Assembly (NCBI GenBank): GCA_016214855.1
Contig: JACRMT010000013.1
Coordinates: 62,001 to 126,000 of the forward strand
DNA from: Nitrospirota bacterium
Lineage (GTDB): Bacteria; Nitrospirota; Thermodesulfovibrionia; Thermodesulfovibrionales; UBA6898
DNA length: 64,000 bases
Direction: 5' to 3'
The notes beneath the pieces were generated by a model, which searched no databases, had not been told where the DNA came from, and saw only the letters and a list, made by a program, of their open reading frames with translations. Numbering within the stretch: the stretch's first letter is position 1; the number at the start of each line of letters is the position of its first letter. This document shows, piece by piece, positions 22,755-50,703 of the stretch. The position numbers and the translations under genes are program-made.

Positions 22755-23051
22755 CTATGCCATGATTTCATCTGTTGGCAAGATTTGCTTCACGTGCCGT
22801 ATCGTAAGAATAGATATCAGCTTTTCTTCTGTCCGGCAAATAATTCTGTAATTGCCGTACAGCAATTCTTTTATTTTCGGGTTATTGATTTCCGGAACTG
22901 TTCGACCGCTTTCGGGAAACGACTGCAGTTGTTCGACTTTGGCAAAAACCGTCTCAATCCAGCTTTCCGCCGCACTTCTATTATCCTGTGCTATATATTC
23001 TGCAATCTCGCCTGCTCTGTCTATTGCAAGAGGAGACCAGACAACTTTCAT
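22755..23051 (-). CDS. RelE/ParE-family toxin
   Basis: 98 residues with the ParE/RelE pattern: VVWSPLAIDRAGEIAEYIAQ at the N-terminus, FPESGRTVPEI in the middle, and YGNYRIICRTEEKLISILTI then RH at the C-terminus. It overlaps the antitoxin gene by 4 bases (ATGA-type). ParE-type members poison DNA gyrase and RelE-type members cut mRNA; this sequence fits the ParE branch slightly better. Confidence 0.88.
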   Translation of the reverse strand: MKVVWSPLAIDRAGEIAEYIAQDNRSAAESWIETVFAKVEQLQSFPESGRTVPEINNPKIKELLYGNYRIICRTEEKLISILTIRHVKQILPTDEIMA

Positions 23052-23329
23052 TTTTTGATTCGGCCAAGCACGGCTGCCTTAGCATCGCCATGTTTAATCC
23101 CCTGGCCATTTTCGATCTGGCTGATCGACGTTTGAATATCCTGAAGCAGTTCAATCTTATCCTGCATTGACTCGAATTCATCCGCATCCAGCAGAACAGC
23201 GACACCTTTCCCATGCTGGGTAATAATAAGAGGGCGTTTTGTCACATGAATTTTTTTTATAAAAGATGCAATTCCGGTCCTAAACTCAGACATCGGCCTG
23301 ATATCTTCATTAATTTTTGATCTTCTCAT
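23048..23329 (-). CDS. Phd/YefM-family antitoxin
   Basis: 93 residues. The N-terminal fold is typical: DIRPMSEFRTGIASFIKKI, then KRPLIITQHGKGVAVLLDAD. The C-terminal helical tail (LLQDIQTSISQIE onward) is the likely toxin-binding part. It is first in a two-gene operon behind a perfect 25-bp palindrome, so autorepression is expected. Confidence 0.88.
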   Translation of the reverse strand: MRRSKINEDIRPMSEFRTGIASFIKKIHVTKRPLIITQHGKGVAVLLDADEFESMQDKIELLQDIQTSISQIENGQGIKHGDAKAAVLGRIKK

Positions 23330-23411: not shown

Positions 23412-26150
23412 CTACACTGCAAGAAAAAGAATCAGATAGAACAGCGCAAAAAGCAGGACAGGTCTGTATGCAGCTCTGTTGTCACTAAAGCTTATAGAAA
23501 ACCTATGCGCAACCTTCATGCTTATAGCAGAACCTGCCAGAAGGATCACGATCTGCAGCATCTTGATCGTAACAGATGATGCAGCAAAGGATGGAAGTGA
23601 GGCCTCCACCCCAATCTGCTTGCCAAGGACCTGAAGAAGCGTCCCTCCCATGGTGAGTACCCTCGTCAGATGAAAATTCACCTCAAAGGCTACACTGAGC
23701 GGTATCAGGCAATAGATGCCATATGCTGTTGCCCTTTGCGAGTTCTCCGAAACAGGGAAATACCGCCTGCCTGTCGCTGCAGCAAAAAGAACCGCTCCGC
23801 CAGTCATGCCGACGATGAGGAGAGCTGCATAAAGCCACCAGAGTGGCGCTGACCGAAGGGCATGAAACAGACCGACTTGTTCAAGCCCTCTGAAGATCTG
23901 CGTTCCGATAAGTGCTGAACCGATGATCACACCGCTCATCTCAAGGTTCGCCGAGGCCCAAAGCTCCTGCCCCGGGACGCGCAGATTAAATACCGGCGAG
24001 TTGTTCGGACAGATCTTTACACAGTTGCCGCAGAGCACACAGTTCTGATTTGAATGGAGTGAAAAAGGGCCCTCAAAGAGAGGACAGCCCTCGCCTTTTT
24101 CGTTGCCGACATAGCAGTCATGGTTCAGGCAGTTTGTGTTACAGATGTTATAGTTTGACCTGAGCTCAACAGCAGAGCAGCGTGATAGAAAGCCCACCAG
24201 TCCGCCCAGCGGGCAGAGATACCGGCACCAGGTCCGGCGCTCGAAAATATATCCGACAATGAGCGCCGATAGTGCAACCGTAAGCACGAGTATTGCTGTT
24301 GCCTTCGGTGAATGAGGCATATCAAAAACAGACTCGGCCCAGAATATGGAGGCGATCCCAACAGCCGTCAGGTAAATCCCATACGTGCGGATAATCTGCG
24401 GAACTTTGATCTTAAGTCCGAACGATCTGCCGATGAGATATCCGGTTGGACCCATAGGACAGGTACTGCACCACGACCGGGCGAGAAAGAAACTCCCAAG
24501 AACCACAGCCGGCTCCCAAAATGCCCAGGTAAGCACAAGGGCTAGATTGCGATTCGGGTCCTGACTGCCGAAAAAGCCGAGCAGTATGATCAGAGCTATG
24601 CCAGGCAGGGCAGCCACCTGTAGTGCGACCGGGAACTTTTTGTTAAGAAAAAGATTTTTGATCTTGTCATAGCTGAAAAGATCAAAGGCAATCTGGCCGC
24701 TGACAGGCGGCGGGCTGAGAAAGATATGCCCGGAAGAGAGCATGCAGTCTTGACAGATAGACATAGCCCTGCGAACGGCGCTCGCGAGCTCATCGTGGTT
24801 GCCGGGCCAGTCATATGCCATGATCGCCTTGTACGCGTCTTCGTCGAGGCCATCGATCGTCAGGCCGAGCTGCCGGTTGTAACGGTGAATATAGTGTTCA
24901 ACGGTCTCCCGGATATCCTTTTTCCTTAATCTCAGCGGCGGGAGCATGATCCGGGTCGTACCGATCAGATCAAGAAGCTGCTGGCTGAACATTCCCTGTG
25001 CTGCGAGCATTTCGATATCGGCATGCGTGGTTGCAAGCACACGGACCCTTGCTCTCAGCGGAGTTGCGTCCCCGAAGGCGCAAAACGCGCCCGACAGGAG
25101 ATAATCGGCGAGCATCGACTGTGCCGCTGCGGACAGGAGATCGATATTCTCGACGATGACAGCGCCGTTGTCTGCGAGTTGAAACAGGCCGATCCGTCTG
25201 CCCGTGCGGGAAGGCAGGGATTCTTTTGACCTTCCGAAAAGTGCGCTTATCTGAATCATTTCGAGGCTTAACCCTTTTTCGTAAGAGCCTTGATCGGAAA
25301 AGCCGACAGAGGCACCTGCGTCATAGGTAAAGAGATTGCCGTCGGTACGATGGATGAGAGCAGCAGCATCCCAGAGCTCGGTACCCGCCTCCCCCTGGAC
25401 CAGCACATGCCCGTCTTCACCGGCGGCCTTGTCAATCTCGTCGAGGGCCTTGCGGATAACCGCCGTGCTGCCGAGGATTATTGGGGTATGCCTGCTGTTT
25501 TGTTCGGAGATGAATGCGCGGTATGCATCCTCAACAGCCTTTGCATCGGCGATCCGATCGGACCCTTTCATCAGACGTTCGGCAAGCACCCGGACAAATC
25601 CCCGCATAACAGACGGATTGGCTGCAAGCATTGAGTCGAAAACAGGCTTCGGCACAGAGATCAGCACGGTCCGTTCTTTGGTCGTGGCCGTAGAGGCGCG
25701 GTCAGCTCCGGTCAGGAGGGCAAGCTCGCCAAAACCCTCTCCTGGCCCAAGCACGGTAGTAGGGATCTCCCGTCCACTCTCACACGTCCGCGAAAGCGCA
25801 ACACTGCCTGATACGATGATAAAGTAGCTGTCGCCCCTGTCATGCTGTCTGAAAATAACCGCATCCTCCGGCAGCGCCAGATGGAGAGACTGGCTTGCGA
25901 TCGCCAGCAGCGAACTGACCGGTACAGGCTCAAACAAGGCAATATCCCGCAGACAGTCCTCTCGCTGTCGCAGCAGGCAACGCTGAAGGATCCTTTCGCT
26001 GATCCAGCCGTTTTCGGCCATGATAACGCCGATATACCGATGCTCGCCCTTTTTTATGAGTGCAGACTGGATATCAAGCGCCTTCTGAAGGTAATGCCTC
26101 GCTTCAGGCAGTTCACGGAGCAGATATTGTCCAAATGGCGTAATGTTCAT
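23412..26150 (-). CDS. Fusion protein: cNMP-binding, degenerate NtrC-type AAA+, and NapH-like polyferredoxin membrane module
   Basis: 912 residues in one frame. About 1-70 is a small helical domain. About 72-200 is a cyclic-nucleotide-binding fold (PGEGFGELALLTGADRAST). About 222-465 follows sigma-54 activator AAA+ layout (LPPLRLRKKDI, YDWPGNHDELASAVRRA). However, the Walker A is GEAGTELW with no Lys, Walker B is VIVENIDLL, and GAFTGA and the HTH are absent. About 505-912 has several membrane helices with NapH/CcoG-like Cys motifs: SWCSTCPMGPTGY (559), WCRYLCPLGG (641), a Cys-rich stretch (670-690) and CVLCGNCVKICPNNSP (704-719). The soluble half probably senses a nucleotide and tunes electron transfer by the membrane half; that is inference. 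It is monocistronic as far as can be seen. Confidence 0.82.
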   Translation of the reverse strand: MNITPFGQYLLRELPEARHYLQKALDIQSALIKKGEHRYIGVIMAENGWISERILQRCLLRQREDCLRDIALFEPVPVSSLLAIASQSLHLALPEDAVIFRQHDRGDSYFIIVSGSVALSRTCESGREIPTTVLGPGEGFGELALLTGADRASTATTKERTVLISVPKPVFDSMLAANPSVMRGFVRVLAERLMKGSDRIADAKAVEDAYRAFISEQNSRHTPIILGSTAVIRKALDEIDKAAGEDGHVLVQGEAGTELWDAAALIHRTDGNLFTYDAGASVGFSDQGSYEKGLSLEMIQISALFGRSKESLPSRTGRRIGLFQLADNGAVIVENIDLLSAAAQSMLADYLLSGAFCAFGDATPLRARVRVLATTHADIEMLAAQGMFSQQLLDLIGTTRIMLPPLRLRKKDIRETVEHYIHRYNRQLGLTIDGLDEDAYKAIMAYDWPGNHDELASAVRRAMSICQDCMLSSGHIFLSPPPVSGQIAFDLFSYDKIKNLFLNKKFPVALQVAALPGIALIILLGFFGSQDPNRNLALVLTWAFWEPAVVLGSFFLARSWCSTCPMGPTGYLIGRSFGLKIKVPQIIRTYGIYLTAVGIASIFWAESVFDMPHSPKATAILVLTVALSALIVGYIFERRTWCRYLCPLGGLVGFLSRCSAVELRSNYNICNTNCLNHDCYVGNEKGEGCPLFEGPFSLHSNQNCVLCGNCVKICPNNSPVFNLRVPGQELWASANLEMSGVIIGSALIGTQIFRGLEQVGLFHALRSAPLWWLYAALLIVGMTGGAVLFAAATGRRYFPVSENSQRATAYGIYCLIPLSVAFEVNFHLTRVLTMGGTLLQVLGKQIGVEASLPSFAASSVTIKMLQIVILLAGSAISMKVAHRFSISFSDNRAAYRPVLLFALFYLILFLAV

Positions 26151-26216: not shown

Positions 26217-26813
26217 TTACGGCCTCACAAAAACAAAGGCTTCCTTTTCCATAAATACGTTTTGGTCCTTTCCGTATTTTTTTAGAAAGTCAGCCCACTC
26301 TGCAGCTGTTGCGGTAAACAGATAGGTCTTCTGCTCCTGATGCCAAACTGAAGGCAGCGAAACCGTCTTGTTCTTCACGGCTGCTTCCATCCAGGAGGCA
26401 TCCAGAGGGATGATCTTCATGGTCTTTTCCTCTAATATTACCCGGGAAACGGTATGCACCGGCGTAACATGCAGCACCCACCAAAAGCTCAATACCTCGG
26501 GAGGAGAGTCCGCAATCGCATCGAGAAAGAGCATATCATCAACCCTGAAAAACCTTGAAGAAAGCGTTGCCGATGATCCCTTGAAGTCAGGTATCGTTAT
26601 TTTATCTGCAGAAAAGAGCCATTCCCTGTTCAGTCCCTCCTCTGTCTTGCCCTCTTTCAGAATCCACTTGCCGTTTAATGCAGGCATATCGGCTATGGAC
26701 TCTTTGCTATAAAAAGGGTTGACAGAGTGAACAATACAGCCGTTCAGAACGACTAAAGAAATTATTAAGATAAAAAGGATAAAAACAGATTTCGATACTG
26801 ATCCAGGTCTCAT
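26217..26813 (-). CDS. Lipoprotein of unknown function
   Basis: 198 residues. Signal peptide with lipobox VLNGC (Cys26) after a long hydrophobic run. The mature protein is beta-rich with the phrases ALNGKWILKEGKTEEG and LPSVWHQEQKTYLFTATAAEWADFL. I do not recognise a named family. It follows the JAMM/cysteine synthase pair by 34 bases on the same strand and may share its transcript. Confidence 0.7.
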   Translation of the reverse strand: MRPGSVSKSVFILFILIISLVVLNGCIVHSVNPFYSKESIADMPALNGKWILKEGKTEEGLNREWLFSADKITIPDFKGSSATLSSRFFRVDDMLFLDAIADSPPEVLSFWWVLHVTPVHTVSRVILEEKTMKIIPLDASWMEAAVKNKTVSLPSVWHQEQKTYLFTATAAEWADFLKKYGKDQNVFMEKEAFVFVRP

Positions 26814-26846: not shown

Positions 26847-27290
26847 TCATTGTATCACACTGATAAAGTCCTGCTTTTCAGCATTCCAGAGGAACCCCCT
26901 GATCTCTCGCACCTGTCCCTCATACACGGCAACAACCAGATGCGTGGCATCAGGGAACTCCGGATCTCCAAAGACGGTCTGGACCTCTTTGTCCATGGCC
27001 GAGAAATAAGCCCCGCAGTCTATATGCGAATGATAGAATGCGATCACCTTTTCGCCCCGTGCAGCAGCCTCGTTGACAATGCGCTCCATTTCCTGACGGT
27101 CTATGGCATAGGCCTGGCGGCTGGTACGCGGATGCGTTTCAGGGTCCTGCGCATGAAGTTCATCCTGCAGGTTCCTGCATCTATGCACCTTCTGAACGCT
27201 GCCGTTGCCGACCACCAGTCCGCAACACTCGGCAGGATACTCCTCTTTGGCATGGTCCGAGACAGCCATGATAACGTCGGATGTCAGCAT
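26847..27290 (-). CDS. JAMM/MPN-family metalloprotease (Mec/M67-like)
   Basis: 147 residues. The JAMM zinc motif is complete: Glu in EYPAECCGLVVG (about 21) and H-x-H-x7-S-x2-D in YHSHIDCGAYFSAMD (about 90-104). In Mycobacterium the homologue Mec releases newly made cysteine from the carrier CysO next to cysM. Here the gene is 8 bases after a cysteine synthase, which suggests the same chemistry, but no CysO-like ubiquitin-fold carrier is encoded nearby. Confidence 0.82.
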   Translation of the reverse strand: MLTSDVIMAVSDHAKEEYPAECCGLVVGNGSVQKVHRCRNLQDELHAQDPETHPRTSRQAYAIDRQEMERIVNEAAARGEKVIAFYHSHIDCGAYFSAMDKEVQTVFGDPEFPDATHLVVAVYEGQVREIRGFLWNAEKQDFISVIQ

Positions 27291-27298
27291 AGTCCTTC

Positions 27299-28228
27299 CT
27301 ATAGCTCCCTGCTCAGGTAGCGGTCCCCACCGTCAGGGAACATTACAACAATAACCGCCTGCTCAAGCTTTTCAGCCGCCTTAAGCGCTGCGGACAAGGC
27401 CGCGCCAGAGGAATGACCCACAAACAGGCCTTCTTCCCGCGCCAGCCTCCTGGTCATAGCAAAGGCTGCTTCAGTATTGACAGTCAGACGTTCATCCGGA
27501 AAGCCCTTGTCGAAAACAGCAGGTACGATAGCGCCTTCTTCAAGATATTTCATGCCCTCAATGCCGTGCATGGCATCATCAGGGTGAACAGAGATGATCT
27601 TAACCGCCGGGTTATGCTCCCTGAGCGCTCTTCCTGCTCCCATGATCGTACCGCCAGTGCCGACACAGGCCACGAAATGAGTAACGGTCCCTTTGGTCCG
27701 GCTTATTATTTCAGGGCCAGTGGTCAGAGAATGCGCTTCAGGATTTGAAGGATTGTTATACTGGTCAGGCTGAAAATATCGGTCAGGGTCCCTGCCCACG
27801 ATCTCCTTGGCAAGCCTGATGGCACCGTCAGCCCCTTCAAACGGACTGGAAAATATCAACTCTGCGCCGAAACCGGCAATGATCTTTTTGCGCTCAATGC
27901 CTGCGTTTTCCGGAATCACTATTTTCACACAATAGCCCTTAACAGCGCCGATCATTGCATAGGCAATACCGGTATTCCCTGATGAGGAGTCGATGATCGT
28001 CCTGTCCCGGGTGAGAAGTCCGGCAGCCTCAGCATCACTGATCATGTTTAACGCTGCCCGGTCTTTAACTGAGCCTCCGGGATTGCCTCTCTCGACCTTG
28101 GCGTAGATCCTGACCTTCGTGTTCAGGTGCGCTGAGATCTTTGCAATCCTTACAAGAGGTGTTTTCCCCACCAGGTCAATTACTGATCCCACCTGGCCCT
28201 GCTCTCTTTCATCATATGGTCTTGTCAT
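27299..28228 (-). CDS. cysM: Cysteine synthase, CysM/CysK type
   Basis: 309 residues from ATG 28228 (the frame extends to 28279, but family homology starts at IDLVGKTPLVRI). The PLP lysine is in GNPGGSVKDRAA (about 52), the PLP-phosphate loop is SSSGNTGIAYA (about 83) and a second glycine loop is VGTGGTIMGAG (about 188). It makes cysteine from an activated serine and sulfide or a sulfur carrier. Pairing with a JAMM protease favours the carrier-dependent CysM branch over plain CysK; that is inference. Confidence 0.88.
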   Translation of the reverse strand: MTRPYDEREQGQVGSVIDLVGKTPLVRIAKISAHLNTKVRIYAKVERGNPGGSVKDRAALNMISDAEAAGLLTRDRTIIDSSSGNTGIAYAMIGAVKGYCVKIVIPENAGIERKKIIAGFGAELIFSSPFEGADGAIRLAKEIVGRDPDRYFQPDQYNNPSNPEAHSLTTGPEIISRTKGTVTHFVACVGTGGTIMGAGRALREHNPAVKIISVHPDDAMHGIEGMKYLEEGAIVPAVFDKGFPDERLTVNTEAAFAMTRRLAREEGLFVGHSSGAALSAALKAAEKLEQAVIVVMFPDGGDRYLSREL

Positions 28229-28315
28229 GAGTGGATCATTATAACAGACAACAGCAGGGGCAGGCACTGCCATCAACATGGCAGGGAAAGCTCAAGATCA
28301 GGCCTGCTATATTAA

Positions 28316-28371: not shown

Positions 28372-30210
28372 ATGAAAAATAAGAAGAACATCGGAGAAAA
28401 AGTTCTGTTTTCCGGCAATGAAGCGATTGCCCGGGGCGCATATGAAGCAGGGGTGAAGGTCGCCTCCGGCTATCCGGGCACGCCTTCCACCGAAATACTC
28501 GAAAACCTCTGCCCCTATGAAGGAGTTTACACAGAGTGGGCTCCGAACGAAAAAGTTGCTCTTGAAGTTGCACTGGGGGCCTCTTTTGCCGGGGCCCGTG
28601 CTTTGGCAACCATGAAGCATGTCGGACTGAACGTTGCCGCTGATCCGCTCTTTACCGCAGCATATACCGGCGTCAAGGGCGGCCTGGTGATCGTCACGGC
28701 AGACGATCCCGAGATGCACAGTTCCCAGAACGAACAGGACAACCGGAACTATGCATACGCAGCAAAAGTGCCGATGCTGGAACCCTCAGATGCAGCAGAG
28801 GCAAAAGATTTTCTTAAAATCGCATACAGGATAAGCGAGGAATTTGATACGCCGGTCCTTTTCAGAACGACCACAAGGGTCGCCCATGTAAAAGGCATCA
28901 TCACCATAGGCGAAACAGAGAGTTCGAAAGCCACGCTCGGCATTGAAAAGATGCCGGAGAAGTTCGTCATGCTTCCTGCACATGCGCGCAGACGCAGGGT
29001 TGAGCTCGAAAACCGGATGACCCGCCTCAGGGAATTTGCAGAGACATTTCCGGAAAACCGCATTGAATGGGCAGACAAGGATCGGGGGTTCATAACGTCG
29101 GGCGTCTCCTATCTTTATGTAAAAGAGGCCTTTCCCGCTGCTTCGGTCCTGAAGCTCGGCATGGCATATCCCTTTCCTGACCGAATGATCAGGGACTTTG
29201 CGTCTCAGATAAAGGAACTCTTTGTTGTGGAAGAGCTCGATCCGTTCATAGAAAATCATGTAAGGGCAATGGGCATCTCCTGCAAAGGCAAGGAGCTGAT
29301 ACCCGCCATGGGAGAACTGAATTCCCAGATCATAAGAAAGTCGATCACCGGCGAATCTGCAGGTGCCTCCTTCGAGCCTGTACAGATCCCGATGAGACCG
29401 CCGAACCTCTGCGCAGGATGTCCGCACAGGGGCATATTTCATGCGATCTCAAAACTGAAGGTATTTGTGGCGGGCGACATCGGCTGCTATACGCTTGCGG
29501 CACTCAAGCCGCTTTCGTCCATGGACTCCTGCATCTGTATGGGTGCAAGCATCGGCACTGCGTTCGGCATGGAAAAGGCGTTAGGCAAGGACTCTCTCGG
29601 CAAGATCGTTGCCGTGATCGGCGATTCGACATTTATGCATTCAGGCATTACCGGGCTTATTGATGTTGTCTATAACCGGGGGTTTTCTACGGTCATTATC
29701 CTTGACAACAGAACGACCGGCATGACCGGACACCAGCCGAACCCTTCAACCGGCACGACACTCGGCGGTGACAGCGGCGCCGGCATTGACATCGAGGCGC
29801 TCTGCAGGGCTGTCGGCGTAAAGCATATTGTAACGCTCAATCCCCATGAGCACGAGCAGGCCGAAAAGATCCTGAAACAGGAGATCGAGCGGCCCGAGCC
29901 TTCTGTCATCATCACCAAGGCGCCCTGCGCCCTGCTTCCCGAGATGAAGAAGCGCAAGGACAAAAGAATTCATACAGTCATCGAAGCCAACTGCACAGGA
30001 TGCAGATCATGCCTCAGGATCGGCTGTCCTGCCATCGAGTGGGTGCCGCTCACGCCGGCAGAGGCAAAACAGCTCGGCTACAAAGAGACCCAGAAGGGCC
30101 ATTCACATATCAACATGGTCATGTGCGATGGCTGCGGCCAGTGTGCGCCGCTCTGCAAGTTCAAGGCGATAGTCGTGGCAGGCCCGGGCAATGGTAATAA
30201 GAATGGATAA
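28372..30210 (+). CDS. iorA: Indolepyruvate ferredoxin oxidoreductase, alpha subunit
   Basis: 612 residues. The N-terminal pyrimidine-binding part begins with LFSGNEAIARGAYEAGV and SGYPGTPSTEI. The TPP-binding segment is GDSTFMHSGITGLIDVVYNRG with NRTTGMTGHQPNP after it. The C-terminal ferredoxin domain has two [4Fe-4S] motifs, CTGCRSCLRIGCPAI (about 544) and CDGCGQCAPLCKF (about 584). With IorB it oxidatively decarboxylates aryl-pyruvates to aryl-acetyl-CoA while reducing ferredoxin, or runs in reverse. It is first in an operon with iorB and paaK. No strong ribosome site precedes the ATG. Confidence 0.93.
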   Translation: MKNKKNIGEKVLFSGNEAIARGAYEAGVKVASGYPGTPSTEILENLCPYEGVYTEWAPNEKVALEVALGASFAGARALATMKHVGLNVAADPLFTAAYTGVKGGLVIVTADDPEMHSSQNEQDNRNYAYAAKVPMLEPSDAAEAKDFLKIAYRISEEFDTPVLFRTTTRVAHVKGIITIGETESSKATLGIEKMPEKFVMLPAHARRRRVELENRMTRLREFAETFPENRIEWADKDRGFITSGVSYLYVKEAFPAASVLKLGMAYPFPDRMIRDFASQIKELFVVEELDPFIENHVRAMGISCKGKELIPAMGELNSQIIRKSITGESAGASFEPVQIPMRPPNLCAGCPHRGIFHAISKLKVFVAGDIGCYTLAALKPLSSMDSCICMGASIGTAFGMEKALGKDSLGKIVAVIGDSTFMHSGITGLIDVVYNRGFSTVIILDNRTTGMTGHQPNPSTGTTLGGDSGAGIDIEALCRAVGVKHIVTLNPHEHEQAEKILKQEIERPEPSVIITKAPCALLPEMKKRKDKRIHTVIEANCTGCRSCLRIGCPAIEWVPLTPAEAKQLGYKETQKGHSHINMVMCDGCGQCAPLCKFKAIVVAGPGNGNKNG

Positions 30211-30799
30211 GGTCATGAACCTTTTTCTCTGCGGGGTCGGCGGACAGGGTATCCTCCTTGCCAGCGAGGTGATCTCATCTGCCTGCATGAATGCAGGCTT
30301 TGACGTAAAACAGAGCGAGGTGCATGGCATGGCCCAGCGCGGCGGATCGGTCATCTCTCATATCCGCTTCGGTAATAAGGTCCACTCACCACTCATCGAG
30401 TCAGGTGGTGCGGACTTTGTGGTCTCCTTTGAGATGCTTGAAGCGCTTCGTTATCTCCCCTATATGAACAAGGATACAAAGGTGATCGTGAATACGCAGA
30501 AGATCCTTCCTGCGCCGGTTGCGACCGGCATGGATACGTATCCTGCTGATGTCCTTGACCAGCTTGGCGGTCGGGGGCTTTCGCTCTTCCCTGTCGACGC
30601 CTTTGATATCGCACAATCGATAGGCGAAACCAGGGCGGTCAATATGGTGCTGGTCGGCGCACTTTCCGCCTTCCTGCCTCTTGACGAAAAGGCATTCATG
30701 CAGGTGATCGAACAACGGATACCGGAGAAGATCAGAAAAGTGAATATTGAGGCATTTCTTAAAGGTAAAGAGGCAGTCAGAATTCAGCTTGCACGCTGA
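30203..30799 (+). CDS. iorB: Indolepyruvate ferredoxin oxidoreductase, beta subunit
   Basis: 198 residues from ATG 30203, which overlaps the iorA stop (ATGGATAA); ATG 30191 and 30215 are alternatives. Gamma-type 2-oxoacid oxidoreductase features are present: [17 protein letters not shown] at the start, [16 protein letters not shown] (about 40), and [18 protein letters not shown] (about 72). It completes the two-subunit enzyme with IorA. Confidence 0.92.
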
Positions 30800-30839
30800 C
30801 AAGCTGGCAGGCCGGCAAGCAGGAGGCACTGAGAATATT

Positions 30840-32141
30840 ATGATATGGAATGAAGAGTTCGAAACCCTGCCGCGTGAGGCATTAGAGGCCCTTCAGCTCA
30901 AGCGGCTGAAGAATCTTGTTGAGCGGGTCTATACCGCTGTTCCCTATTATCGTGAAAAGATGGACAAGGCCGGCGTAAAGCCGACGGACATCAAGAGCCT
31001 TTCCGACCTCCGGAAACTGCCGTTCACCACCAAAGAAGATCTGCGCCTGAACTATCCCTTCGGTCTTTTCGCCGTTCCTTTTGAGAAGGTCGTAAGGATC
31101 CATGCCTCATCAGGCACCACAGGCAAGCCTACCGTTGTGGGCTATACAAAAAATGATATTGATGCCTGGGCAGAGCTCATGGCACGGACACTTTCGGCAG
31201 GAGGCGCACATCCCGGCGATGTGGTGCATAATGCCTATGGGTATGGATTGTTCACCGGAGGCCTCGGGGCCCATTACGGGGCAGAACGGCTCGGCGCCGC
31301 AGTCATCCCCATCTCCGGCGGGAACTCCAAGCGCCAGATCATGCTGATGCAGGACTTCGGCTCAACCGTGCTTATGTGCACACCTTCGTATGCCCTGAAC
31401 CTCGCTGATGTCATGAAAGAGATGAACGTTGATCCCAAAAGCCTGAAACTCCGTGTAGGCCTCTTCGGCGCAGAACCCTGGTCAGAGAATATGCGGCAGG
31501 AGATAGAGGCACGCCTGAATATCAAGGCCATAGACATCTTCGGCCTGAGCGAGGTCATGGGACCGGGTGTCGCTTCCGAATGCATTGAAGAGAAGCACGG
31601 CCTCCATGTCTTCGAGGATTATTTCATCCCCGAGATCGTGAATCCGGAGACCTTTGAGCCTGTGCCGCATGGAGAATTGGGCGAACTGGTCTTTACGACA
31701 CTCACCAAAGAGGCCTTCCCGGTGATCCGCTATCGCACGAAAGACCTGTCGAGGATCATTGATGCACCCTGCTCCTGCGGCAGGACCTTCCACCGGATGC
31801 AGCGCATCACCGGCAGAACCGACGACATGCTGATCATCAGGGGTGTGAATGTCTTCCCTTCGCAGATCGAGCATGTGCTGATGTCCATCGAAGGCGTTGA
31901 GCCCCATTACCAGATCATTGTTGACCGGCAGGCATCCCTCGATATCATGGAGGTGCAGGTCGAGGTGAGTGAGAACATCTTCTCTGACGAGATCAAGGTG
32001 CTCGAAAAACTGGGCAAGAGGATCGAGCGGGAGATCAAGGACCTTCTTGGCGTCTCCTGCAAGGTGAAGCTCGTTGAGCCGAAGACCATTCAGAGGTCTG
32101 AGGGCAAGGCAAAACGGGTGATCGATAACAGGAAACTGTAG
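30840..32141 (+). CDS. paaK: Phenylacetate-CoA ligase family protein, copy 1
   Basis: 433 residues from ATG 30840. The AMP-binding motif is [19 protein letters not shown] (about 88-106), with [15 protein letters not shown] (about 236), [20 protein letters not shown] (about 325) and a C-terminal [15 protein letters not shown] typical of PaaK. It activates aryl-acetates to CoA thioesters using ATP, making or using the product of the IorAB reaction. It is closely related to the copy at 37418-38716. Confidence 0.92.
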
Positions 32142-32147
32142 AATAAG

Positions 32148-32228
32148 CACTCAGCGATCAGCCTTCAGCTCTCAGCAAAAGATATTATTGCAGTATGTTT
32201 TAGCTGACTGCTGAAAGCTGACAGCTTT
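32148..32228. repeat. GCTGA-type long inverted repeat after paaK copy 1
   Basis: The left half CAGCGATCAGCCTTCAGCTC and the right half TAGCTGACTGCTGAAAGCTGA are inverted around an AT-rich spacer, so the RNA can form a long hairpin. A related element with a matching spacer (ATT.TTGC.G) follows paaK copy 2 at 38721-38812. Confidence 0.65.
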
Positions 32229-32245
32229 GTTAACAGGAGGTTATT

Positions 32246-32677
32246 ATGAAAGTCGAGCAGATATCCGTATTTCTGGAAAATAAGTCAGGAAGGCTTGCAG
32301 AGGTTGCAACCGTGCTTGCAGCGGCTGGGATCAACATCCGCGCCCTCTCCCTTGCAGACACCACAGACTTCGGCATCCTGCGTCTTATCGTGAATGACAC
32401 GGAAAAGGCAAAACAGGTGCTGAAGGACCATGGCTTCACCGTCGGCAAGACCGAGGTGATCGGCGTTGAGGTGGCGGACAAGCCGGGCGGTCTGGCAGAG
32501 ATTCTGAATGTGATGAAGGCCAACAGCATAAATGTTGAGTATATGTATGCCTTTGTGCAGAAGTCTGCAGGGAATGCGGTCATTATCTTCCGCTTCGACG
32601 AACTGGAAAAGGCGATCGAAGCGCTGCAGAAGGCAGGTATCAGGATCATGAAAGGCGAAGAGATCTATTCGGTCTGA
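32246..32677 (+). CDS. Tandem ACT-domain protein
   Basis: 143 residues made of two ACT domains: [20 protein letters not shown] (residues 5-24) and [20 protein letters not shown] (about 76-95). This matches a small regulatory family found beside paaK and iorAB in many anaerobes. ACT domains bind amino acids, so it probably senses aromatic or branched-chain amino acids and adjusts a neighbouring enzyme. It lacks any catalytic domain. Confidence 0.85.
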
Positions 32678-32709
32678 ATCTATTAATCCAGTAAAGGGAG
32701 GTACAACGT

Positions 32710-33888
32710 ATGAAGGCAGTTAAGATTTTGGCAGTTCTGTTGTTTTCCTGTTTGATCCTCGCAGCGCCCGCGCTCGCCAAGGACACCATCAAGATCGGTG
32801 CGATCCTGGCAGTAACAGGCCCGGCATCGTTCCTCGGCGCGCCTGAGGCAAAGACGCTCGAAATGCTTGTTGAGGATATCAACAAAAAGGGCGGCATCAA
32901 GGGCATGAAGGTTGAACTGATCATCAAGGACTCGGGAGCAAGCCCGGAGAAGGCCCTTTCGTTTGCAAAGCAGCTGATCGAAGAAGACAAGGTGCTGGCC
33001 ATCATCGGACCGTCCACAAGCGGCGAGACGATGAAGATCAAGAGCGTTGCTGAAGAGGCAAAGGCAATCCTTATCTCCTGCGCTGCCGCTGAAGTGATCG
33101 TAAACCCGGTCGCTAAATATGTATTCAAGACACCCCAGATGGACAAGCATGCGGTCATCAGGATCTTCGAGCAGATGAAGGTCATGAAACTGGCCAAGGC
33201 AGGCGTCCTGTCGTCCAACACCGGATTCGGCAAGGCAGGCAAGGAGCAGATCGAAAAGCTGGCTGCCGAGCATGGCGTCCAGGTAGTTGCAAGTGAGGCA
33301 TATGACAGCAAGGCCACAGACCTCACCGCAGAGGTTACCAAGGTGAAGGCAGCTGGAGCCGAGGCTATCATCAACTGGTCCATCGAGCCTGCACAGGCTA
33401 TTGTTATCAAAAACGCCCGCCAGCTCGGATTCAAAGGCCCGATATTCCAGAGCCACGGCTTTGGTAATATCAAATACGTTGAAGCTGCCGGAGAAGCTGC
33501 TGAAGGCGTTATCTTTCCTGCCGGCAGACTCCTGATTGCTGATGTGCTGCCGAAAAACCATCCCCAAAAGGCACTTTTGACAAAATACAAAAAAGACTAT
33601 GAGTCAAAGTTCAAGGAAGAGGCCAGCACCTTCGGCGGTCATGCGTACGATGCTATGCTCATCCTGACCAAGGCGATCGAAAAGGCCGGCAAGGCTGACA
33701 AGGAAGCGGTGAGGAATGCGATCGAGGGTCTGACGGGCCTCGTCGGCACTGCAGGCACTTTCAACTTCTCGGCTCAGGACCACAACGGTCTTGATATCAA
33801 TGCCTTTGAGATGCTTACCGTCAAGAAGGGCAAGTTCGAGCTGCTTGCAACCCCGGCGAAAAAGGAAGGCGCATCCAAGAAGAAATAG
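32710..33888 (+). CDS. livK: Branched-chain amino-acid ABC transporter, substrate-binding protein
   Basis: 392 residues with a signal peptide (about 1-23, ending APALA). The Leu/Ile/Val-binding fold shows IKIGAILAVTGPASFLG, AIIGPSTSGETMKI (about 98) and FGGHAYDAMLIL (about 310). A strong AAAGGGAGG site precedes ATG 32710. It is first of the livKHMGF set, between two aryl-CoA ligase genes, so an aromatic or aryl-acid ligand is possible. The C-terminus is lysine-rich. Confidence 0.9.
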   Translation: MKAVKILAVLLFSCLILAAPALAKDTIKIGAILAVTGPASFLGAPEAKTLEMLVEDINKKGGIKGMKVELIIKDSGASPEKALSFAKQLIEEDKVLAIIGPSTSGETMKIKSVAEEAKAILISCAAAEVIVNPVAKYVFKTPQMDKHAVIRIFEQMKVMKLAKAGVLSSNTGFGKAGKEQIEKLAAEHGVQVVASEAYDSKATDLTAEVTKVKAAGAEAIINWSIEPAQAIVIKNARQLGFKGPIFQSHGFGNIKYVEAAGEAAEGVIFPAGRLLIADVLPKNHPQKALLTKYKKDYESKFKEEASTFGGHAYDAMLILTKAIEKAGKADKEAVRNAIEGLTGLVGTAGTFNFSAQDHNGLDINAFEMLTVKKGKFELLATPAKKEGASKKK

Positions 33889-33897
33889 GTTTCTGAC

Positions 33898-33921
33898 GCA
33901 GGGGCGGGAAACCGCCCCTGC
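33898..33921 (+). other. Intercistronic hairpin between livK and livH
   Basis: GCAGGGGCGG and CCGCCCCTGC form a perfect 10-bp stem with a GAAA tetraloop, 10 bases after the livK stop. No U-run follows, so it is a better candidate for protecting the livK mRNA end than for termination. Confidence 0.7.
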
Positions 33922-33938
33922 AGATCTTATCTTACTGC

Positions 33939-34829
33939 ATGAATATCGAACTCCTCTCCCAATATCTCGTTGCCGGTATAACCTACGGGACGATCTACGC
34001 GATCGTCGCGATCGGGTTCAATATCATTTACAATGCGACCGGTATCATCAATTTTGCTCAGGGCGAGTTCGTTATGTTAGGCGGCATGATCGCTGTTTCG
34101 CTTCATACCTTCATGCCACTTCCTGCTGCCATTGTCGCGGCAGTTCTCGCGGCAATGATCATTGGTGCACTGATAGAGATTATCTTTATCCGCTGGCTCG
34201 TCAGTCCATCAGTGCTCCGTATGATCATTATCACGATCGGCATATCGATCTTCGTTCGTGAGGCAGCGCTTCATGTGTGGGGCGAGGCTGTCCGGGCGCT
34301 TCCCTATTTTACCGGTTCAGAGGTTACGGTCATCTCGTTCGGTAATGTGCATATCTCGCCGCAGGTGCTCTGGGTGACCGGCATAGCTGCCATCATCGTG
34401 GCACTGCTCACGTTTTTTTTCAACTACACCCTGCTCGGCAGACAGATGCGGGCATGTTCGTCGAACCGGGACGCAGCAAGGCTCTGCGGCATCAATGCAA
34501 AAAATATGGTGACCCTCTCCTTTGTACTGAGCGCCGGCATCGGCGCACTTGCAGGCTGTGTTGTCTCTCCCATCACCTATGTGCAGTATGACAGCGGCAC
34601 GGGACTGGCCATCAAGGGTTTCACGGTCGCCATACTCGGCGGTCTCGGCAACAGCACAGCTGCCATCGGGGCTGGTCTGATCCTCGGCATTCTCGAATCC
34701 CTCTGCGTCATGGTCCTGCCTACCGCGTTCAAGGACGTCGTCTCCATATCCGTGCTTCTGCTGATCCTCTTTGTCAGGCCAAGCGGCATCTTCGGCAGCG
34801 TCGAAGCTTCCCGGCTCAAGGAGTTCTGA
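33939..34829 (+). CDS. livH: Branched-chain amino-acid ABC transporter permease LivH
   Basis: 296 residues, about eight membrane helices. Typical LivH stretches: YLVAGITYGTIYAIVAIGFN near the start, GIINFAQGEFVMLGG (about 36), and AILGGLGNSTAAIGAG (about 230). Its stop overlaps the livM start (TGATG), so the two permease subunits are probably made in equal amounts. Confidence 0.92.
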   Translation: MNIELLSQYLVAGITYGTIYAIVAIGFNIIYNATGIINFAQGEFVMLGGMIAVSLHTFMPLPAAIVAAVLAAMIIGALIEIIFIRWLVSPSVLRMIIITIGISIFVREAALHVWGEAVRALPYFTGSEVTVISFGNVHISPQVLWVTGIAAIIVALLTFFFNYTLLGRQMRACSSNRDAARLCGINAKNMVTLSFVLSAGIGALAGCVVSPITYVQYDSGTGLAIKGFTVAILGGLGNSTAAIGAGLILGILESLCVMVLPTAFKDVVSISVLLLILFVRPSGIFGSVEASRLKEF

Positions 34830-35911
34830 TGCTGCGGTCAAAGTTCCTGCCCATTATTATCTTCGTCATAGCCATCGTCTCGGTGCAGGTCCTGACAGGA
34901 CTGACAGACAAGGCCCAGTACCTGACCCAGCTGACCATGACCGGATATTATTCACTGGTCATCATCGGGCTCTGCATGCTGATCGGATACGCCGGGCAGA
35001 TATCGCTGGGCCATGCCGGTTTCTTTGCCATAGGCGGCTATGTATCCGCCTTTCTTACAACTTACAATCTCGCTCCTCACAAGGAAAAACCTCTTGTCAG
35101 CGTCCTTTCAAAAACAGGCCTGCTTGGCAGCATGCAGGACCTCTATGGAGGCGACACGATGGTCGTTAATCCATGGCTGGCCTGTATTGCTGCGGTAGCG
35201 GTCACCGTGCTGATCGCTTACATCATCGGCGGGCCGATCCTCAAACTGAAGGGCCATTACCTTGCCATGGCAACGCTCGGATTCGGCACTATTGTTTACA
35301 AGGTCGTTCTGGCCACCTCGTTCTTCGGCGCTGCCGACGGACTCTCGGACATTCCCGGCTTCAAGGTCCTGCCCGGTCTTGAGGTGAGCGGCAAACCCGG
35401 GCTGCGTGTACAGAACTATTACATTGCCTGGGGCCTGGTCGCGCTTGGCATGCTGCTGCTGACGAACCTGATCCATTCACGCGTCGGCAGGGCGCTCCGC
35501 TCCATCCATAGTGCAGAGGACGCGGCCAATGCCATGGGCATTAATACCGGCAGATACAAGCTGAACATCTTTGTCCTGAGCGCGGTCTTCGCTGCCCTGG
35601 CTGGCGTGTTTCTCACCCACTACAATGGCGGCATCGGACCATCCGAGGCGTCCATCATGAAGTCGGTCAGGTATGTCGCGATCGTGGCCATAGGCGGCAT
35701 GGCAAATCTCTGGGGCGCGCTTGCCATGGGATTCGTTCTGAACTTCCTTTCGCTTCGGGGTTACTTCGGTTCATACGACGATGCGATCTTCGGCGTCATC
35801 CTGATTCTTATTATGCTGTTTGCGCCTGAAGGACTGCTGCGCAGAGAGGTTTTTCAGGGACTGAAGAAACGGCTCTCAGGCAAAAAGTCTGCGGGAGGCC
35901 AACAGGCATGA
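34829..35911 (+). CDS. livM: Branched-chain amino-acid ABC transporter permease LivM
   Basis: 360 residues, about nine membrane helices. Typical LivM stretches: IGYAGQISLGHAGFFAIGGY (about 52), GHYLAMATLGFGTI (about 142), and GVFLTHYNGGIGPSEASI (about 252). The ATGA overlap with livG at 35908 indicates coupling. Confidence 0.92.
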   Translation: MLRSKFLPIIIFVIAIVSVQVLTGLTDKAQYLTQLTMTGYYSLVIIGLCMLIGYAGQISLGHAGFFAIGGYVSAFLTTYNLAPHKEKPLVSVLSKTGLLGSMQDLYGGDTMVVNPWLACIAAVAVTVLIAYIIGGPILKLKGHYLAMATLGFGTIVYKVVLATSFFGAADGLSDIPGFKVLPGLEVSGKPGLRVQNYYIAWGLVALGMLLLTNLIHSRVGRALRSIHSAEDAANAMGINTGRYKLNIFVLSAVFAALAGVFLTHYNGGIGPSEASIMKSVRYVAIVAIGGMANLWGALAMGFVLNFLSLRGYFGSYDDAIFGVILILIMLFAPEGLLRREVFQGLKKRLSGKKSAGGQQA

Positions 35912-36672
35912 GCCTCCTTGAGGTGCAGGATCTCAGCAAGCGTTTCGGCGGGCTGAAGGCTGTGGACCATGTCAGTTTCTCCGTGCAGGAAGGCTCTATC
36001 AAGGCGCTGATCGGGCCGAACGGCGCAGGAAAGACAACCCTCTTCAACCTTCTTTCAGGGGTATTGCCATCCGACTCGGGTGCGATCCGATTCAATGATG
36101 CAGCTATTCATAAACTTCAGCCCTATCAGGTCGCGGCAAAGGGCATGTCGCGGACCTTTCAGCATATCCGTCTCTTCACCCATATGTCCGCACTTGAGAA
36201 CATCATGATCGGCAGACATATACACACCAGGGCAGGCTTCCTTTCCGGCATGATGGCCCTCCCCTGGACCAGAAAAGAAGAGCATGCCGCCCGTGCGCGC
36301 TCTCTCGAGATCATGGCCTTTCTGGGCATAGCTGATCTCGCAGAGACTGAAGCGACAAGCCTTGCATACGGCCAGCAGAGGACCCTTGAGATCGCCAGGG
36401 CCCTTGCCTGTGAGCCGAAACTGCTGCTCCTTGACGAACCTGCAGCAGGCCTGAATATGCGTGAAACTGCAGAAATGGCAAAACTGATCTCCCGCATCCG
36501 CGATACCGGCGTAACGGTCCTGCTTGTCGAACATGACATGTCTCTGGTGATGAACATCTCTGACGAGATCGTTGTCCTGAGCTATGGCCAGAAGATCGCT
36601 GACGACAAGCCCCTCGCTATTCAGAAGAACCCTGAGGTGATCAGGGTCTATCTCGGGGAAGATGATGCTTAG
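35908..36672 (+). CDS. livG: Branched-chain amino-acid ABC transporter ATPase LivG
   Basis: 254 residues. Walker A is IGPNGAGKTTLFNLLSG (about 34), Q-loop region RTFQHIRLF, the signature is weakly kept as LAYGQQRTLEIARALA (about 152), Walker B LLLDEPAAGLN (about 172), and the H-loop VEHDM (about 208). It overlaps livF by 11 bases. Confidence 0.92.
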   Translation: MSLLEVQDLSKRFGGLKAVDHVSFSVQEGSIKALIGPNGAGKTTLFNLLSGVLPSDSGAIRFNDAAIHKLQPYQVAAKGMSRTFQHIRLFTHMSALENIMIGRHIHTRAGFLSGMMALPWTRKEEHAARARSLEIMAFLGIADLAETEATSLAYGQQRTLEIARALACEPKLLLLDEPAAGLNMRETAEMAKLISRIRDTGVTVLLVEHDMSLVMNISDEIVVLSYGQKIADDKPLAIQKNPEVIRVYLGEDDA

Positions 36673-37402
36673 GATCAGGAACCTCGAATCAGGATACGAC
36701 AGCCTCAAGGTCCTGCGGCATATATCGATCCATGTCAGTGCCGGAGAGATCGTCACTATTATCGGGGCGAACGGCGCAGGCAAAACAACCCTGCTCAAGA
36801 CCATTGCGGGCCTTATCAGGTCAACGGCAGGCGAGATGCTTTTTGAAAAGCAGGAGATCGCGCGGCTGTCTCCGGAAAAGATCGTATTCCTCGGCTGTTC
36901 GCTTGTGCCGGAGGGCAGACAGGTATTTGCGCCGATGACGGTCAGAGAAAATCTGCTTTTGGGCGGGTATGTTCAGTATCAGCGCAACAAGAAAGATGAG
37001 GTTGATGCGGATCTTGAGCGTATCTTCGGGCTCTTCCCCAGACTGAAAGAGCGGGAAGCGCAGCTTGCCGGAACCCTCTCCGGCGGAGAACAGCAGATGC
37101 TCGCGATCGGCAGGGCATTGATGGCGCGGCCAAGGCTGATCATGATGGATGAGCCGTCCATGGGCCTTGCACCTCTGATCGTGAAGGATATTTTCTCGAT
37201 CATCAGAAAGCTCCGGGACGAAGGCAACACCGTATTGCTCGTTGAGCAGAACGCAAAGGCAGCACTCGGCATTGCTGACAGGGGCTATGTGCTTGAGACA
37301 GGAAGGATCATTCTTGAGGAAAATGCTGAGGACCTGCTGTCGAACCGCGATGTGCAGAGGGCCTATCTCGGCAGGGATCTTGATACGGAAGTGAAGATAT
37401 AG
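36662..37402 (+). CDS. livF: Branched-chain amino-acid ABC transporter ATPase LivF
   Basis: 246 residues from ATG 36662 (or 36665). Walker A is IGANGAGKTTLLKTIAG (about 34), the signature is LSGGEQQMLAIGRALM (about 138), Walker B LIMMDEPSMGLAP (about 157). It ends the transporter set; paaK copy 2 follows after 15 bases with its own GGAGG site. Confidence 0.92.
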   Translation: MMLRIRNLESGYDSLKVLRHISIHVSAGEIVTIIGANGAGKTTLLKTIAGLIRSTAGEMLFEKQEIARLSPEKIVFLGCSLVPEGRQVFAPMTVRENLLLGGYVQYQRNKKDEVDADLERIFGLFPRLKEREAQLAGTLSGGEQQMLAIGRALMARPRLIMMDEPSMGLAPLIVKDIFSIIRKLRDEGNTVLLVEQNAKAALGIADRGYVLETGRIILEENAEDLLSNRDVQRAYLGRDLDTEVKI

Positions 37403-37417
37403 CAACGGAGGTTAATT

Positions 37418-38716
37418 ATGTTCTGGGAACCCGAAAAAGAATGCATGGACCGTGAGGAACTGAGACAACTGCAGCTTGAGCAGCTTCAGGCCACCCTGTC
37501 GCGGGTATATATGAATGTACCCTTCTATCGGAAGAAGTTCGATGAGATGGCTGTTGACCCTGATGAATTCAGGTCACTTGACGATCTGAGAAAACTCCCG
37601 TTCACGACCAAAAATGACCTCCGTGACAATTATCCCTATGGCCTCTTCGCCGTACCTCTGCGGGAAGTGGTCAGGATCCATGCATCTTCAGGTACGACCG
37701 GCATGTCCACGGTTGTAGGCTATACAAAAAACGACATCAAGAACTGGTCGAACCTTGTTGCGCGGGTGCTCACTGCAGGCGGCGTCACAAAAGATGACGT
37801 TGTCCAGATAGCCTTCGGATACAGTCTCTTCACCGGCGGGTTCGGTCTGCACTACGGCGCAGAGCGGATCGGCGCGTCGGTCATCCCGATCTCAAGCGGC
37901 AACACAGCCCGGCAGATCAAGATCATGCAGGACTTCAAGACAACGGCGCTGGTCTGCACCCCCAGCTATGCCCTGCTGATCGCTGACACGATCCAGGAGA
38001 TGGGGATCGATATCAACGCCCTTTCTCTCAAATACGGCCTCTTCGGCGCGGAGCCCTGGTCGGAAAAGATGCGGCAGGAGATCCAGGACAAGCTCAGGAT
38101 CGTTGCAACGGACAACTACGGTCTGAGCGAAGTGATGGGTCCGGGCGTTGCCGGTGAATGCCTTGAACGCAACGGTCTGCACATTAACGAAGATCATTTC
38201 CTCGTGGAGATCATCAACCCCGAGACCCTTGAACCCGTTGCTCCCGGCGAGATCGGTGAACTGGTGATAACGACCCTCACCAAAGAGGCATTTCCGGTGA
38301 TCAGGTTCAGGACGCGTGACCTCACCCGTCTCATGCCTGAGCCCTGCCCCTGCGGCAGAAAGACCGTGAAGATGCAGCGCGTCATGGGCAGGACCGATGA
38401 TATGCTGATCATCCGGGGAGTGAATGTCTTCCCGTCACAGATCGAGAATGTATTGATGAGCGTTGAGGGGACAGAGCCCCATTACCAGATCGTGGTCGAC
38501 CGCAAAGGCGCGCTTGATGAGGTGACGGTCATGGTCGAAGTATCAGAGTCGATCTTCTTTGACGAAATGAAGAAACAGCACGAACTCATCGAGACGATCA
38601 AAAGGCGTCTTGCCTCAGAGCTGAGCATATCGGTTCAGGTGAAACTCGTGGAGAAGAAGACCATAGAACGCACTGAAGGCAAGGCGAAACGGGTAATCGA
38701 TAACAGAAAGCTATAG
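37418..38716 (+). CDS. paaK: Phenylacetate-CoA ligase family protein, copy 2
   Basis: 432 residues. Motifs as in copy 1: [19 protein letters not shown] (about 90-108), [15 protein letters not shown] (about 234), [20 protein letters not shown] (about 325) and the [13 protein letters not shown] end. It differs from copy 1 in the N-terminal 20 residues and many surface positions, so the two may prefer different aryl or acyl acids. It is last in the transporter operon. Confidence 0.92.
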
Positions 38717-46243: not shown

Positions 46244-47101
46244 ATGGGTACCGGTATGTTTACTGGAAATGTCAGTGAAAATCAGCCCGAAGATGCGCTT
46301 GCGGAAATACTGAATTACGTAAAGAAATTTCGCGGGATCGATTTTTCTGCGTACCGAAGCAACACCATAGGCCGCAGGCTTATGGGCCGACTGCAGTCGA
46401 CCGGCATGCCTGATTACGGATCATACGCAGGTCTTCTCAGGGACGATCCAAAAGAGATAGAAAAACTCGTCGAGGCATTTACGATCAAGGTCAGCCACTT
46501 CTTCAGAAATCCCTTCACCTTTGAGGTGCTCCGTGACCCTATTTTGCCGGAGCTGCTCGAATCAACAAAAGGAGAATTGAGAATATGGTCTGCAGGCTGC
46601 GCAAACGGTGAAGAAGCCTATTCTCTTGCAATCCTTCTCAGAGAGATCCTCGAAAAGGACTTCCCATCAGCGAATATTCTGATCCTGGCAACCGATATCG
46701 ACCGTAATGCTCTTGCAGAGGCGGAAAAGGCACTCTACAGGAATGAATCACTCTTTGAGGTAAGAAAAGGATATCTCGACAAATATTTCACCCGGTTCAA
46801 TGACAATCTCTACCGGGTGAATGATGAGGTGAAATCAATGGTGACTTTTGCTGTTCACGACGTAACAACAGGCAGCCCGCCCAAAGAAGGGATATTTTCG
46901 GATTATAACGTCATTTTCTGCAGAAATGTCCTCATTTACTTTAACCTCGGGCTACAGGAGAAGGTTATCACTTCATTTTCCGGGATGCAGCATAGAGGAT
47001 ATCTGGTGCTCGGCGAGGCAGAGTCTCTTCCTGCGCGGCTTGCTGGATCCTATAACGAAATCCTGCCACGCACGAAGATATTCAGAAAGGCAGGAGGCTG
47101 A
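46244..47101 (+). CDS. cheR: CheR-type protein methyltransferase
   Basis: 285 residues. N-terminal helical CheR domain (GIDFSAYRSNTIGRRLMGRL), then the SAM-binding region RIWSAGCANGEEAYSLAIL (about 105) and FCRNVLIYFNL (about 225). CheR normally methylates glutamates of chemoreceptors, but no chemoreceptor, CheA or CheW is in this window. It is directly followed by a Cache-type kinase whose start lies 2 bases after its stop, so it may modify a kinase or a distant receptor. Confidence 0.9.
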   Translation: MGTGMFTGNVSENQPEDALAEILNYVKKFRGIDFSAYRSNTIGRRLMGRLQSTGMPDYGSYAGLLRDDPKEIEKLVEAFTIKVSHFFRNPFTFEVLRDPILPELLESTKGELRIWSAGCANGEEAYSLAILLREILEKDFPSANILILATDIDRNALAEAEKALYRNESLFEVRKGYLDKYFTRFNDNLYRVNDEVKSMVTFAVHDVTTGSPPKEGIFSDYNVIFCRNVLIYFNLGLQEKVITSFSGMQHRGYLVLGEAESLPARLAGSYNEILPRTKIFRKAGG

Positions 47102-47102
47102 G

Positions 47103-49856: not shown

Positions 49857-49861
49857 AGGCA

Positions 49862-50272: not shown

Positions 50273-50275
50273 GCC

Positions 50276-50665: not shown

Positions 50666-50703
50666 TGCAATGCCCCTTATTCAGCCTTAAACAGAGGAAA
50701 GCG

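Follow-up and report, generated by a model that had tools for sequence, protein, structure and literature searches.

Sensor-fused membrane polyferredoxins carrying a degenerate sigma-54-activator scaffold: candidate signal-gated electron carriers in at least four bacterial phyla

What can a protein do in which a cyclic-nucleotide-binding (cNMP) fold and an NtrC-type AAA+ domain without its catalytic motifs are joined to a membrane iron-sulfur (Fe-S) module? The question is raised by a 64,000-nucleotide stretch of a Nitrospirota genome (Thermodesulfovibrionales, UBA6898; assembly GCA_016214855.1, contig JACRMT010000013.1, positions 62,001 to 126,000), hereafter the window, in which an uninterrupted open reading frame (ORF) of 912 amino acids (aa) at 23412-26150 on the minus strand encodes such a fusion. 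With a probability of roughly 0.45, the protein is read here as a signal-gated NapH/NosR-like membrane polyferredoxin in which the dead AAA+ scaffold serves as a conformational connector. The C-terminal half would be an electron conduit of nine transmembrane (TM) helices and, facing the cytoplasm, probably three [4Fe-4S] clusters; like NapH/NosR-type proteins, it would most likely connect the quinone pool with a cytoplasmic partner by electron exchange. The N-terminal half would descend from a one-component sigma-54 activator that lost ATP hydrolysis, sigma-54 contact and DNA binding and retained its fold. Probably oligomeric, it may now act as a non-hydrolysing conformational switch that relays ligand or phospho-signals from exchangeable inputs (cNMP, GAF, FHA) to the redox module, thereby gating electron flow.

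Domain order and conservation of the fusion gene

The window protein consists of a helical N-terminus, a cNMP fold, an NtrC-type AAA+ domain with its lid, and a membrane Fe-S module, arranged as listed below. Intact sigma-54 activators are referred to as bacterial enhancer-binding proteins (bEBPs), and dN/dS is the ratio of nonsynonymous to synonymous substitution rates.

23412..26150, minus strand: fusion gene, 912 aa (ORF; full-length relatives 86% identical in G002, a sister genome of the same genus, and 41% identical in G017, of the same family; dN/dS 0.19)
25947..26150, minus strand: N-terminal helical region, residues 1-68 (AlphaFold2 helices 6-13, 15-33, 40-46 and 52-68; alignment)
25620..25874, minus strand: cNMP-binding domain of CRP/PKA type, residues 93-177 (PF00027, E 5.5e-20; CRP/GlxR fold match, Z ~18)
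25698..25727, minus strand: phosphate-binding cassette Glu142-Arg151, with PKA/HCN spacing (alignment)
24711..25478, minus strand: pseudo-AAA+ domain and lid, residues 225-480, NtrC family (PF00158, PF25601; 1ny6, Z 28.2; dN/dS 0.21)
25371..25394, minus strand: former Walker A, GEAGTELW, residues 253-260 (aligned to GESGTGKE of intact bEBPs)
25206..25223, minus strand: position of the GAFTGA loop, reading ESLPSR, residues 310-315 (alignment)
25146..25163, minus strand: former Walker B, AVIVEN, residues 330-335 (alignment)
23421..24638, minus strand: membrane module with nine predicted TM helices, residues 505-910 (AlphaFold2 helices and hydropathy)
24009..24470, minus strand: twelve conserved cysteines in the TM2-3 and TM4-5 loops (alignment), by predicted topology on the same side as the soluble half

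Pfam matches comprise Sigma54_activat at residues 226-396 (3.8e-16), AAA_lid_14 at 407-476 (9.4e-14) and Fer4_5 at 620-657 (1.3e-5). A Fer4 match near residue 703 falls slightly below the Pfam cut-off, and the Fer4_5/Fer4 signatures span residues 620-717. In sequence comparison with the PDB, residues 222-479 match NtrC1, NifA, ZraR and PspF, and residues 53-203 match CRP/PKA proteins. The N-terminal helical region is shared with Nitrospirota and Desulfobacterales relatives and missing from those of Bacillota.

The degenerate catalytic motifs of the AAA part could point to a gene in decay, or to an artefact of annotation, assembly or a lost stop codon, but this reading has practically no probability left: it is refuted by the full-length 86% copy in an independent genome, by full-length relatives across many assemblies, and by purifying selection. 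In comparison with the 86% copy, the protein as a whole has a dN/dS of 0.19; taken by part, the ratio is 0.21 for pseudo-AAA, 0.16 for cNMP and 0.11 for the cluster core, and it ranges from 0.06 to 0.21 among the genes neighbouring the fusion. Given these values, the degenerate AAA part is about as constrained as the rest of the protein. The search for the same fusion that the initial annotation had proposed recovered it in 54 proteins of three phyla and on cyanobacterial plasmids, a recurrence that excludes chance or misassembly. The counter-case named there, separate halves joined through a lost stop codon or a misassembly, fails, the known stand-alone modules of about 460 aa being ordinary complete genes.

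Within evenly drawn genome samples that covered few phyla, so that the distribution is a lower bound, the fusion occurs in 6/296 Nitrospirota genomes, 20/395 genomes of the phylum of Desulfobacterales bin239 (Thermodesulfobacteriota) and 34/83 genomes of the class of Peptococcaceae bacterium CEB3 (Bacillota). Full-length or nearly full-length members include Nitrospirota metagenome-assembled genomes (L031/L032), Desulfobacterales bin239 (L033), Thermodesulfovibrio sp. SW.3.86 (L034), Peptococcaceae CEB3 (L035) and Desulfobacula sp. (L036). A tblastn search of plasmids added Pseudanabaena galeata CCNP1313 pPg_03 and Aulosira laxa NIES-50 plasmid2 (coverage 89-94%, ~25% identity), bringing the 54 non-redundant fusions of the three phyla to 56. 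The family thus spans at least four bacterial phyla. Two members are named 'cyclic nucleotide-binding domain-containing protein' and 'nitrogen assimilation regulatory protein' in public records; such labels conceal the redox half, and these proteins should therefore be left out of sigma-54 regulon surveys.

The activator scaffold and the membrane module

Alignment to intact activators bears out what had been noted of the AAA+ half. The Walker A lysine is lost (GEAGTELW against GxxGxGK, with GESGTGKE in intact activators), Walker B is changed (VIVEN against hhhhDE), and GAFTGA is absent, its loop position reading ESLPSR; in addition, both arginine-finger positions and the sensor II arginine are altered. 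A helix-turn-helix (HTH) domain is absent as well, only about 25 residues lying between the lid and TM1 and no HTH model matching (alignment, Pfam, AlphaFold2). The AAA+ scaffold itself is kept. In the AlphaFold2 model (mean predicted local distance difference test score, pLDDT, 71; AAA part mostly 80-90), residues 224-479 superpose on active NtrC1 (1ny6) with Z 28.2 and a root-mean-square deviation of 1.8 Å over 242 residues, and the cNMP part matches CRP-family proteins at Z ~18.

Most of these losses are shared across the family. The Walker B Asp-Glu pair is found in 0/54 fusions (EN in the window), as are GAFTGA (closest, GAFADA in G066) and both arginine fingers, and the sensor II arginine survives in 2/54. 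The Walker A lysine is present in 20/54 and replaced by arginine in 28; both cyanobacterial copies keep GTGKT, with NN or EN at Walker B and the GAFTGA loop deleted. In this alignment, the missing Walker A lysine reads as a late, clade-specific loss, and the losses of Walker B, GAFTGA and the arginine fingers as family-wide. Since Walker B is lost throughout while the Walker A lysine or GTGKT persists in some members, ATP hydrolysis was probably lost first; ATP binding may persist in some members, and the window's clade appears to have lost that too. With every catalytic and sigma-54-contacting feature missing, the window protein cannot act as a sigma-54 activator, as the initial annotation had concluded, and the absence of Walker B, GAFTGA and both arginine fingers from all 54 relatives extends this conclusion to the family. 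To our knowledge, cyanobacteria are without sigma-54, and the architecture occurs there too. No sigma-54-type promoter (TGGCAC-N5-TTGC, one mismatch permitted) was found near the fusion gene.

The membrane module has TM helices predicted by AlphaFold2 and hydropathy at residues 505-527, 536-555, 585-608, 615-635, 736-758, 771-797, 804-835, 859-884 and 891-910. Its twelve conserved cysteines (561, 564, 642, 646, 670, 674, 679, 689, 704, 707, 710 and 714) are all present in 54/54 fusions and in both cyanobacterial copies, and because of this invariance the redox half appears to be in full working order. Twelve cysteines are enough for three probable [4Fe-4S] clusters, and the cysteine motifs that mark a polyferredoxin-type membrane protein are recognisable in the window protein. 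Given a soluble half taken as cytoplasmic and the nine-helix layout, Cys561 and Cys564 (TM2-3 loop) and the ten cysteines 642-714 (TM4-5 loop) would lie on the cytoplasmic side; these two loops also hold most of the positive charge in the topology analysis.

Comparison with known systems places the family apart from each of them. NtrC-family bEBPs (NtrC1, ZraR, PspF, NifA) share the AAA+ fold and lid at ~25% identity, and CRP-like members with an N-terminal cNMP domain occur in the same phyla; in the fusions, however, Walker B, GAFTGA and the arginine fingers are gone and the HTH is replaced by the membrane Fe-S module. The label 'NapH-type' holds as a resemblance, NCBIfam NapH models being the best named matches, but it is loose as a class, for the score of 46.8 bits is far under the cut-off of 213.05. 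Like NapH/MauN, the fusion has paired CXXCP/CXXXCP motifs following TM2 and TM4, with a CxxCxxCxxxC cluster further along the chain. Unlike them, it has nine predicted TM helices, about five more, and 12 conserved cysteines, four of which (670-689) are additional, and it was not seen beside nap genes in the loci read. In NosR and PceC (RdhC), too, a membrane module with two motifs of CXXXCP type is fused to a further domain, but that domain is FMN-binding and outside the cytoplasm, whereas that of the fusion is the presumably cytoplasmic cNMP/pseudo-AAA half; no FMN-binding domain was matched in Pfam scans of the window protein or its relatives. The membrane segments of NapH have been proposed to oxidise quinol, CX3CP motifs recur in NapH, NosR and RdhC, and NosR and PceC (RdhC) are proposed to act between the quinol pool and a reductase (PMC5928378). 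Altogether, these comparisons define the family as candidate sensor-fused membrane polyferredoxins that are neither functional sigma-54 activators nor members of NapH/MauN or NosR/RdhC.

Sensory inputs and the direction of signalling

The initial annotation had suggested a nucleotide-sensing regulator of electron flow, which is plausible for the window protein. Glu142 and Arg151 of the PKA/HCN-type pocket, the residues expected of a ligand-competent domain, are kept, and the genome encodes three class III cyclases; the window copy could therefore sense a cyclic nucleotide. The input is varied elsewhere in the family. By Pfam, the cNMP domain is joined by GAF in G066 and G333, by two GAF matches in G371 and by FHA in G394, where a gene for a Ser/Thr kinase with TPR repeats begins 40 bp past the end of the FHA-cNMP-pseudo-AAA-polyferredoxin gene (L182:6766-11743); in G635 a kinase gene lies upstream of the fusion. 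Such varied sensory inputs on a constant pseudo-AAA/membrane core form the strongest argument for the soluble half as a regulatory input, and input swapping (GAF; FHA with an adjacent kinase) backs the notion of a regulator better than the cNMP domain alone.

Several results weigh against the proposed reading. The membrane module has no significant PDB match over its full length in sequence, nor in fold in searches with a model whose cluster loop is poor (pLDDT ~30; Foldseek best E 0.3; VIA Z <8). Both pocket residues are kept in just 9/54 fusions, the window included, so that cNMP cannot, on this alignment, be the general ligand; with a class III cyclase in only 9/34 fusion-bearing Bacillota genomes in addition, most members are unlikely to be cAMP sensors. 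Finally, clustering of all ORFs around 40 fusion loci gave no common partner gene and no conserved redox partner. This clustering ruled out a fixed operon partner, and the co-occurring redox genes that the initial annotation had hoped to find are not conserved beside the fusion across the family. Class III cyclases were also considered as a general source of the ligand and rejected, there being no association in Bacillota (9/34 with the fusion vs 8/49, p 0.28).

The decay of the cNMP pocket and of Walker A in many members, together with the existence of stand-alone modules of ~460 aa, of which one group forms the sister of the window's clade in the C-terminal tree, would also fit a soluble half that is a mere scaffold, oligomerisation platform or vestige on a constitutive membrane electron carrier. 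Purifying selection on the cNMP and pseudo-AAA parts, the swapping of GAF and FHA inputs and the survival of the architecture in four phyla speak against a vestige, and this explanation is considered improbable.

Signalling might also run in reverse, the membrane Fe-S module acting as a sensor for the redox state of quinone or cytoplasm and the soluble half serving as output. The pseudo-AAA part would then join, titrate or tether intact sigma-54 activators, poisoning their hexamers as an anti-activator, or would bind another regulator. An AAA scaffold without catalysis fits a dominant-negative subunit, and RdhC was first proposed as a transcriptional regulator (PMC5928378). Furthermore, in G413 and G641 the gene directly before the fusion, on the same strand, encodes an intact bEBP, which in G413 is a response regulator with GAFTGA and HTH; this adjacency, however, is confined to one small clade. 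The fusion is also found in cyanobacteria, which by general knowledge are without sigma-54, and an FHA input with an adjacent kinase fits a receiving rather than a sending half. A reversed direction is regarded as rather unlikely.

If signal gating is correct, its interest lies in the level of control. Bacterial respiration is usually controlled transcriptionally, whereas signalling domains physically coupled to a membrane electron carrier would provide direct post-translational control of electron flow; on the domain evidence, the fusion probably lets the cell control electron flow upon internal signals. The family would, moreover, clearly exemplify a molecular machine, the sigma-54-activator AAA+ ring, retained for structure after catalysis was lost in every examined lineage. 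More tentatively, the family may represent an undescribed class in which a dead sigma-54-activator scaffold acts as a conserved connector, so that signals from cyclic nucleotides, GAF ligands or phosphorylation would gate a membrane [4Fe-4S] conduit directly, in three phyla and in cyanobacterial sulfide-type islands. A full-text search of a partial open library returned no description of this fusion architecture; a survey of sigma-54 in Clostridiales checked GAFTGA and lists Fer4 among N-terminal regulatory domains, which is a different design (PMC6615313).

Origin and gene context

In a maximum-likelihood tree of the AAA parts, all fusions, the cyanobacterial ones included, fall on one side of a branch separating them from 19 bEBPs (UFBoot/SH-aLRT 100/100). 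A single origin is compatible with this tree, although long degenerate branches may attract and the activator sample is small (19). The membrane-module tree needs two changes: the stand-alone group of 455-475 aa is sister to the window's clade, which suggests that the soluble half was later lost there or that fusion happened twice. CRP-like bEBPs of Thermodesulfobacteriota (L167-L169), with an N-terminal cNMP domain, an AAA domain with intact GAFTGA and GTGK, and a C-terminal end past the lid, are a plausible type of progenitor or donor of the soluble half. Separate, adjacent genes for the two halves were looked for and rejected: L167-L169 are normal sigma-54 activators, none beside a polyferredoxin, and the stand-alone 460-aa modules have unrelated neighbours.

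Stand-alone 4Fe-4S membrane proteins (455-530 and 690-940 aa) carry a homologous module, the identity of the fusion's module to that of the paralogue in the host's own genome being ~30%, and are without the AAA or cNMP half; among the forms of 690-940 aa, most have another N-terminal part and no cysteine at positions 670 and 674. The host paralogue (L021:8214-10322) is a 702-aa protein with a different N-terminal part and a C-terminal RHTH end; it adjoins a metal P-type ATPase gene and is widespread in the host's family. A version of 925-943 aa (L025:7549-10377, L008, L015) has a large N-terminal part without Pfam recognition. Among stand-alone module genes of the Bacillota class, those of L203 and L204 lie beside ABC-type transporter and permease-like genes and that of L205 behind small Gly/Met-rich proteins, possibly a link to metal or redox stress.

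The window and G002 share a run of closely spaced genes on a single strand, with cysM first, followed by the JAB peptidase, the lipoprotein and the fusion:

27299..28279, minus strand: cysteine synthase (cysM-like), first gene of the putative operon (NCBIfam cysKM/cysM; same order in G002)
26847..27290, minus strand: JAB/MPN metallopeptidase (PF14464, E 1.7e-18), 8-bp gap to cysM
26217..26813, minus strand: putative lipoprotein immediately before the fusion gene (unmatched in Pfam and NCBIfam; 75% identical copy in the same place in G002)

JAB genes paired with cysteine synthase genes are on record as an arrangement for sulfur transfer (PMC1779556), described for cysteine synthesis from a sulfur carrier; no ThiS/CysO-like sulfur-carrier gene was seen near the pair at 26847-28279 (minus strand). 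In both cyanobacteria a cysteine synthase gene follows the fusion, 5 and 17 bp after it, so that this gene shares a putative operon with the fusion in two lineages independently. The cyanobacterial islands (L210-L213) further encode rhodanese-type proteins, an extra psbA, an extra Rieske protein, FAD-dependent oxidoreductases and ArsR or MerR regulators, with DsrE in addition in Pseudanabaena, and by gene content look like sulfide or low-oxygen response islands. The resulting sulfide/cysteine link in the window's genus and the cyanobacteria is a lead found after the fact and suggestive only.

Dissimilatory sulfite reductase was considered as a general partner and rejected, its enrichment being confined to the Bacillota class apart from a weak signal in Nitrospirota. 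The dsrA gene is found in 29/34 Bacillota genomes with the fusion vs 14/49 without (Fisher p 4e-7, phylogeny not corrected) and in 5/6 vs 128/290 Nitrospirota genomes (p 0.09); in Thermodesulfobacteriota it is not enriched (9/20 vs 181/375, p 0.8).

Just downstream of the fusion, a ParE-type toxin and a Phd/YefM antitoxin are encoded at 22755-23329 (minus strand), where G002 has a thioredoxin gene. On the plus strand, 28372-38716 carries iorAB (indolepyruvate ferredoxin oxidoreductase alpha/beta), a phenylacetate-CoA ligase, a second AMP-dependent ligase and a periplasmic binding protein of amino-acid type with transporter-like ORFs after it, and looks like a catabolic cluster for aromatic or branched-chain amino acids. 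Three multi-sensor histidine kinases (dCache/GAF, PAS and PAS) are encoded within 9 kb at 46926-55522 (plus strand).

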